Shown here in pieces: positions 22,941 to 41,944 of a DNA stretch of 64,000 nt. The notes below the pieces were generated by a model. That model had not been told where the DNA came from, made no database searches, and saw nothing but the letters and a program-made list of their open reading frames with translations. The translations under genes were made by a program, and so were the position numbers. This stretch comes from Actinomycetales bacterium (lineage in GTDB: Bacteria > Actinomycetota > Actinomycetes > S36-B12). The DNA lies in the NCBI GenBank assembly GCA_016125355.1, contig WGLX01000009.1, positions 62,001-126,000 of the forward strand, given 5' to 3'. Numbering within the stretch: the first letter of the stretch is position 1; each line of letters opens with the position of its first letter.

Positions 22941-23036
22941 TGTGGTGCATCAGGCGGACGGGCGTTGAACGGACCATGAGGCAGGTCTTCTGGCACAGTT
23001 CGATGGCGGACCGGATCGAAGACGCGAGGAGGACCG

Positions 23037-24233
23037 ATGACCGAGCAGTTCGTCGTCTACGGCGCCCAGTGGTGTCCCGACTGCCGCCGCAGCAAGGCGT
23101 TCCTGGCGGACCTGCGGGTGCCGTTCCACTATGTCGACCTCGAGACCGAGCCTGACGCGGTCGACACCGTGCTCCAGCTGAACGACGGCAAGCAGATCAT
23201 CCCGACGATCGTCTTCCCCGACGGCTCCCATGTGGCGGAGCCGACGAACGAGGAGCTCGCCGAACGGCTTGGCCTGCCGCGATCGGCAGCCGAGGACACC
23301 TATGGGCTGGTCATCGCCGGCGGCGGTCCCACCGCGCTCACCACGGCCATCTACGCGGCCCGCGAGAACATCAGGACGCTCGTCGTCGAACGCTCCGCCC
23401 TGGGTGGGCAGGCGGGTACGACCGAGCGGCTCGACAACTACCCCGGCTTCCCGGATGGCATCGGCGGGGCCGAGCTGGCGGACCGGTTCGTGGCCCAGGC
23501 GCACCGCTACGACGTCGAGACGCTCGCGGCCGTCTCCGTCCGCGCGATCGAGCCCTCCGAGGACGGCATCCGGGTGCGGCTGTCCACGGGTCAGGAGGTG
23601 ATCGCGGGCGCCGTGCTCATCGCGACCGGCTCGACCTATCGCCGCACGGGTGCGCCGGGGGAGGACGATCTCATCGGGGCTGGCATCCACTTCTGCGCCA
23701 CGTGCGACGGTCCCTTCTACAAGGGCGCCGAGGAGGTGGTCGTGCTCGGAGGCGGCAACTCGGGCTTCGAGGAGGGCCTGTTCCTCGCCCAGTTCGCCGA
23801 GCACGTCACCATCGTCGAGGCCATGGACGAGCCCCGCGCCTCGCGAATGCTGTAGGACAAGGTGCGGCAGCACGAGCGGATGTCGGTCGTGACCGGTACC
23901 CGGTTGACGCGCTTCAACGCCGACATGGAGGACCGTCTGGCGTCCGTCCGCCTGGTCGATCCGCAGGGCAACGAGAGCGACCATCCGGCGACGGGGGCGT
24001 TCGTCTTCATCGGCCTCGATCCGAACACGGCGTGGCTGGAGGGGCTGGTGGAGCTCGACGAGGCCGGCTTCATCGTCACCGATCGGACGATGGAGACCAG
24101 CGTGCCGGGGGTCTTCGCCGCGGGTGACGTGCGCTCGGGGTCCACCAAGCAGCTGGCCTCGGCGGTGGGCGAGGGCGCCGCGGTCGCCCTGCAGATCCGC
24201 CACTACCTCGACAGCCTGGAGCAGGGGCAGTAG
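23037..24233 (+). pseudogene. trxB: Redoxin-thioredoxin reductase fusion interrupted by an amber codon
   Basis: One continuous 399-codon frame with TAG at 23853-23855 (codon 273). The SD AGGAGGA (23027-23033) precedes ATG 23037. Residues 1-78 are a glutaredoxin/mycoredoxin-like domain with CPDC (Cys13, Cys16). From residue 88 it is thioredoxin reductase: FAD motif AGGGPTA, redox pair CATC (Cys220, Cys223), NADPH motif GGGNSG. After the stop, the frame continues intact with DKVRQHERMSVVTGTRLTRF and the FAD-binding GVFAAGDVRSG. A Gln codon CAG changed to TAG would explain it. Truncated, it loses the C-terminal FAD segment. GTG 23862 could restart the 3' part. Real mutation, read-through or sequencing error remain open. 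Confidence 0.85.
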
Positions 24234-41131: not shown

Positions 41132-41944
41132 ATGTTCCGACGCCGCAGCGGCATCGAGATCAAGTCGCCTGACCAGCTGGCCGTCATGCGTCAGGCGGGC
41201 CTGGTGGTCGCGCGGGCACTGCACGCCATCGAGGAGGCAGCGACGCCCGGAACGACCACGGCCGAACTCGACGCCATCGCCCGCGAGGTGCTCAGGGACC
41301 ACCGGGCGACCTCATCCTTCCTCGGCTACCGCGCCCACGGCGCGGTGCCCTACCCCGGGGTCATCTGCGCCTCCGTCAACGAGGAGGTCGTGCACGGGAT
41401 CCCCGGCAGCCGCGTCCTCCGTGAGGGCGACCTGCTCTCCGTCGACTTCGGCGCCATCGTGGACGGCTGGAACGGCGATGCCGCCGTGACCATCCTCGTG
41501 GGGCAGGTGGCTCCCGAGGCCGCCGAGCTGAGCCGGATCACCGAGGCGGCCTTGTGGGCCGGCCTCGATCAGGCTCGCGTCGGTGCCCACCTCACCGACA
41601 TCTCCCATGCCGTGGAGTCGACCATCGTGGCCGCCGAGCAGGAGGCCGGGCGTGAGTTCGGCATCGTCGAGGACTACGGCGGCCACGGCATCGGCTCGCG
41701 CATGCACATGGAGCCGCACATCCTCAACTACGGAGCTCCCGGGCGGGGTCCGGTGCTGCGTCCCGGTATGGCCCTGGCGATCGAGCCGATGGTGACGCTC
41801 GGCAATCCGGCGGTGATGGTGCAGGACGATGCCTGGACTGTGGTGACCCTCGACGGCTCGCTCGCCAGCCACTGGGAGCACACGGTGGCGGTCACCGAGG
41901 AGGGCCCGTGGGTTCTCACCGTCCTTGAGGATCCGGTGCGATAG
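41132..41944 (+). CDS. map: Methionine aminopeptidase, type I
   Basis: A 270-residue metalloprotease that removes the initiator Met. The five metal ligands are visible: Asp in VDFGAIVDG, Asp in WNGDAAVT, His in YGGHGIG, Glu in LAIEPMV, and Glu in HWEHTV. The N-terminus MFRRRSGIEIKSPDQLAVM lacks the SH3-binding extension found in some actinobacterial paralogues. It starts 11 bases after adk. Confidence 0.97.
   Translation: MFRRRSGIEIKSPDQLAVMRQAGLVVARALHAIEEAATPGTTTAELDAIAREVLRDHRATSSFLGYRAHGAVPYPGVICASVNEEVVHGIPGSRVLREGDLLSVDFGAIVDGWNGDAAVTILVGQVAPEAAELSRITEAALWAGLDQARVGAHLTDISHAVESTIVAAEQEAGREFGIVEDYGGHGIGSRMHMEPHILNYGAPGRGPVLRPGMALAIEPMVTLGNPAVMVQDDAWTVVTLDGSLASHWEHTVAVTEEGPWVLTVLEDPVR

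Follow-up and report, generated by a model that had tools for sequence, protein, structure and literature searches.

Three described systems come closest to the protein encoded at this locus, namely TrxB (TIGR01292; nearest solved chains 4gcm and 7aaw), AhpF (TIGR03140; 1hyu) and mycoredoxin (TIGR02200). The FAD and NAD(P)H domains and the CATC motif of TrxB align along residues 87-394 of the protein, which differs from TrxB in carrying an N-terminal CPDC redoxin domain, in lacking the HRRxxxR motif and in being broken by a TAG codon. AhpF likewise has a thiol-disulfide domain fused ahead of a TrxB-like reductase; however, its N-terminal domain is larger, whereas the protein described here has one short glutaredoxin-like domain, and its upstream and downstream halves, scored separately, reached 150.7 and 75.1 bits against the AhpF cut-off of 502.9 bits. 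Mycoredoxin matches the N-terminal domain at residues 7-78, but the score (61.7 bits) lies below the cut-off of 89.5, and the domain differs in its CPDC motif and in being fused to a reductase. We found nothing in the literature specific to such a redoxin-reductase fusion.

In TrxB, HRRxxxR is the motif at the 2'-phosphate site. It is missing throughout the fusion family, both in the gene reported here (positions 23814-23843) and in its homologues. From established knowledge of TrxB and AhpF, this absence suggests that the fusion family may use NADH or a non-standard donor instead of NADPH, and its layout would work like that of AhpF; neither suggestion has any bearing on the stop codon.

The interrupted gene was found in a 64-kb stretch of DNA (hereafter the window) from a draft genome of 3.34 Mb in 45 contigs, which is 96% complete. 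Its features, numbered by position in the window, are as follows.

23026..23032, + strand: ribosome-binding-site-like GAGGAGG, intact, 5' of the ATG (sequence CGCGAGGAGGACCGATG)
23037..24233, + strand: redoxin-thioredoxin reductase fusion gene with one in-frame TAG inside, defined by translation and profile matches
23037..23280, + strand: N-terminal mycoredoxin/glutaredoxin-like domain with CPDC at residues 13-16 (Pfam Glutaredoxin, E 1e-9; TIGR02200, E 6.5e-17, under its cut-off)
23694..23705, + strand: CATC redox-active motif of the reductase, residues 220-223, kept in 83 of 86 homologues
23853..23855, + strand: premature in-frame TAG, codon 273, with a stop at this site in none of 86 homologues
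23856..24230, + strand: downstream part, comprising the remaining NAD(P)H domain and the C-terminal FAD segment (GDVR, residue 363), with TIGR01292 positions 184-300 and no other decay
23862..24233, + strand: possible restart ORF from GTG, 123 codons, judged incidental

Translation of 23037-24233 gives 272 residues, TAG at codon 273, a further 125 residues and a terminal TAG, in agreement with an earlier note on this DNA that had described a 399-codon frame (the terminal stop included) with TAG at 23853-23855 as its sole interruption. The first 80 residues form the glutaredoxin/mycoredoxin-like domain; the CPDC motif is present in the window gene and in 82 of the 86 homologues, as is the GDVR motif at residue 363 in the window gene and 77 homologues. 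TIGR01292 (TRX_reduct) matched the upstream half over profile positions 3-181 (E 1.7e-51, 174.8 bits) and the downstream half over positions 184-300 (E 9e-26, 90.4 bits), the two halves having been scored separately against a model whose cut-off of 343.45 bits applies to the whole protein. Since the two matches follow one another along the profile, the halves are consecutive pieces of one protein, and Pfam Pyr_redox_2 is split likewise (3-178 upstream, 194-291 downstream). The gene thus has the CPDC redoxin domain and the CATC reductase of the fusion family in a single frame, and that frame is interrupted at codon 273. The earlier note's statement that the truncated chain would lose the C-terminal FAD segment is correct as far as it goes, but the stop is located within the NAD(P)H-binding domain, part of which is lost too.

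The window was scanned in full for stop codons with a strong codon-position GC signature to either side; of the five returned, only the one at 23853 interrupts one protein. The stops at 1961, 32482, 32773 and 41942 were rejected as interruptions, being ordinary gene ends with the next gene in the same frame; by eye, the TAG at 1961 separates a substrate-binding protein from a secreted protein, and the TAG at 41942 a methionine aminopeptidase from a sulfotransferase-like protein. No further interrupted gene was detected by this coding-signature scan of the 64 kb.

For comparison we used 86 full-length fusion homologues of about 51-75% identity. At the site of the stop, 56 of them have CAG, 21 have CAA and nine have another sense codon, so that glutamine is encoded in 77; the Leu-Gln-Asp-Lys that the earlier note had given as normal for homologues was right, and the comparison with close relatives that it proposed sets a disabling mutation in the window gene against intact homologues. 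All but one of the homologues are uninterrupted. The exception (L082, from Streptomycetaceae bacterium AM_0118) has one in-frame TAG elsewhere, at 1328-1330 of its locus and aligned to residue 201, which is either an independent stop or a base error in a draft genome.

We favour the explanation that a recent nonsense point mutation in this glutamine codon inactivated one of two fusion genes, and assign it a probability of roughly 0.66. On this explanation the base at 23853 would be real and the product inactive. Release factor RF1 would release a chain of 272 residues that stops within the NAD(P)H domain, and this product, deprived of the rest of that domain and of the C-terminal FAD segment, would presumably not fold into an active flavoenzyme.

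The remainder of the gene bears no mark of decay. Of 153 columns that show no variation among 12 close homologues, the window protein departs at one, with Gly for Asp immediately ahead of the FAD motif; its sister sequence (L037) differs by the same measure at five of 158. Tajima counts against this sister with five outgroups were 33:29, 30:31, 28:38, 27:28 and 18:29, and the rate tests showed no excess in either half. A further trio, with L038 as partner and L009 as outgroup, gave a large asymmetry but was discarded as invalid, as the tree groups L038 with L009. The dN/dS ratio against the sister is similar before and after the stop (0.22 and 0.27), and codon-position GC downstream of the stop (0.71/0.45/0.94) is the same as in the upstream part. 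Invariant columns, rates and dN/dS together bear out the view that neither half has decayed otherwise. With about 339 nonsynonymous sites in invariant columns and one change among them, any unconstrained period is bounded (95%) below about 1.4% neutral divergence. Set beside a synonymous distance to the sister near 0.8, this bound means that the stop arose recently, provided that it is real and inactivates the gene.

The same lack of decay is what would be seen if the population gene were intact and TAG were a wrong or minority base, introduced by sequencing, assembly or a strain mixture. A consensus error of this kind would look identical to a nonsense mutation, which is an argument against our preferred explanation, and we regard it as a serious possibility though clearly the less probable one. 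The assembly is a draft in 45 contigs, 96% complete, and neither the same-genus genomes nor the species-representative contigs yielded another genome of the species that could confirm the base. Against an error, the change is a clean substitution and not a homopolymer indel, the local consensus looks good in that the scan detected no other interrupted gene in the 64 kb, and the paralogue described below, at 71% identity, is too different to have been confused with this gene.

A functional gene whose amber codon is read through, by a suppressor tRNA, pyrrolysine or programmed readthrough, would also show zero decay while making full-length enzyme, and the full conservation of both halves and an evolutionary rate equal to that of the sister would fit such a gene. 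The decoding machinery of the genome argues otherwise. RF1 (C25:49220) and RF2 (C31) were found over cut-off in a genome search, and the PylS model had no match in the genome. None of the 41 tRNA genes over the Rfam cut-off, whose anticodons were read with ARAGORN, has a CTA anticodon and all have ordinary ones, so that the search for an amber suppressor proposed in the earlier note came back empty, although in a 96% complete genome such a tRNA could be missing. A tRNA-Leu with anticodon TAG was rejected as a suppressor, as it decodes CTA codons. In the window, TAG is an ordinary terminator, ending the substrate-binding-protein gene, rpsS, map and the interrupted gene itself. Nor is the premature TAG conserved among the homologues or recurrent in other genes of the window, so that there is no conserved recoding site. 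With both release factors present, PylS absent, no CTA anticodon and TAG ending other genes, suppression is unlikely, and we give readthrough of any kind little credence. Smaller still is the chance that an unrecognised local mechanism reads the codon through with useful efficiency, so that a regulated full-length reductase would be made beside the truncated chain. Of the three origins that the earlier note had entertained, a recent event and a sequencing or assembly error are therefore supported and suppression is not.

In principle, the upstream 272 residues could be one chain and the product of a restart at GTG 23862 or ATG 23880 a second, the two assembling into one enzyme. An AGGA lies four bases 5' of the in-frame GTG, which itself follows six bases after the stop, and the eleven bases that begin with the second letter of the stop codon and run to this GTG read AGGACAAGGTG. 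However, AGGACAAGGTG also occurs in 20 of the 86 homologues, all 20 uninterrupted, and the restart-like signal is therefore incidental, a by-product of the conserved Q-D-K-V codons. No homologue is split at the same place, and because the break cuts through the NAD(P)H domain instead of following a domain border, two independently folded parts are improbable. We consider such a two-chain enzyme very doubtful.

Loss of this gene, as the nonsense mutation would entail, may have been tolerated thanks to other reductases that are present in the same genome and could compensate. An intact fusion paralogue (C30:62190-63359, L002) is 71% identical over 390 residues and has no stop; it shares the architecture of the interrupted gene but differs in genomic neighbourhood and has a Leu codon at the equivalent site. 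By eye, this paralogue lies between carboxymuconolactone-decarboxylase/AhpD-like and RpiB-like genes (L002:857-3235, G000 C30). A canonical trxB, with HRRDALR, followed by trxA, is found at C28. The earlier note had held that a second full-length trxB would make the loss trivial, and the genome has two such genes, the intact fusion paralogue and the trxB of the trxB-trxA pair.

In the tree, the interrupted gene is sister (100/94 support) to L037, the copy of one same-genus genome, and the second copy of the source genome falls in a neighbouring clade. Seven genes from around the interrupted gene were tested, and the sister gene has kept none of them next to it. Among 13 other same-genus genomes the fusion gene occurs in only one (G001), where it is intact and in another neighbourhood; it is absent at E 1e-80 from the other 12, several of which are incomplete. 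Because of this single occurrence, the gene seems to be patchily distributed and dispensable in the genus.

The locus serves mostly as a caution. A single stop in an otherwise well-kept gene of a draft genome catches the eye, and annotation pipelines would list the interrupted gene as two reductase fragments. Judged by the decoding machinery, the gene redundancy and the relatives, however, the simplest account is a nonsense mutation of recent date or a wrong base. No new mode of decoding has to be invoked, and what the locus records is most probably a recent loss of function by mutation, or else an assembly error at one base, in a redoxin-reductase fusion gene.
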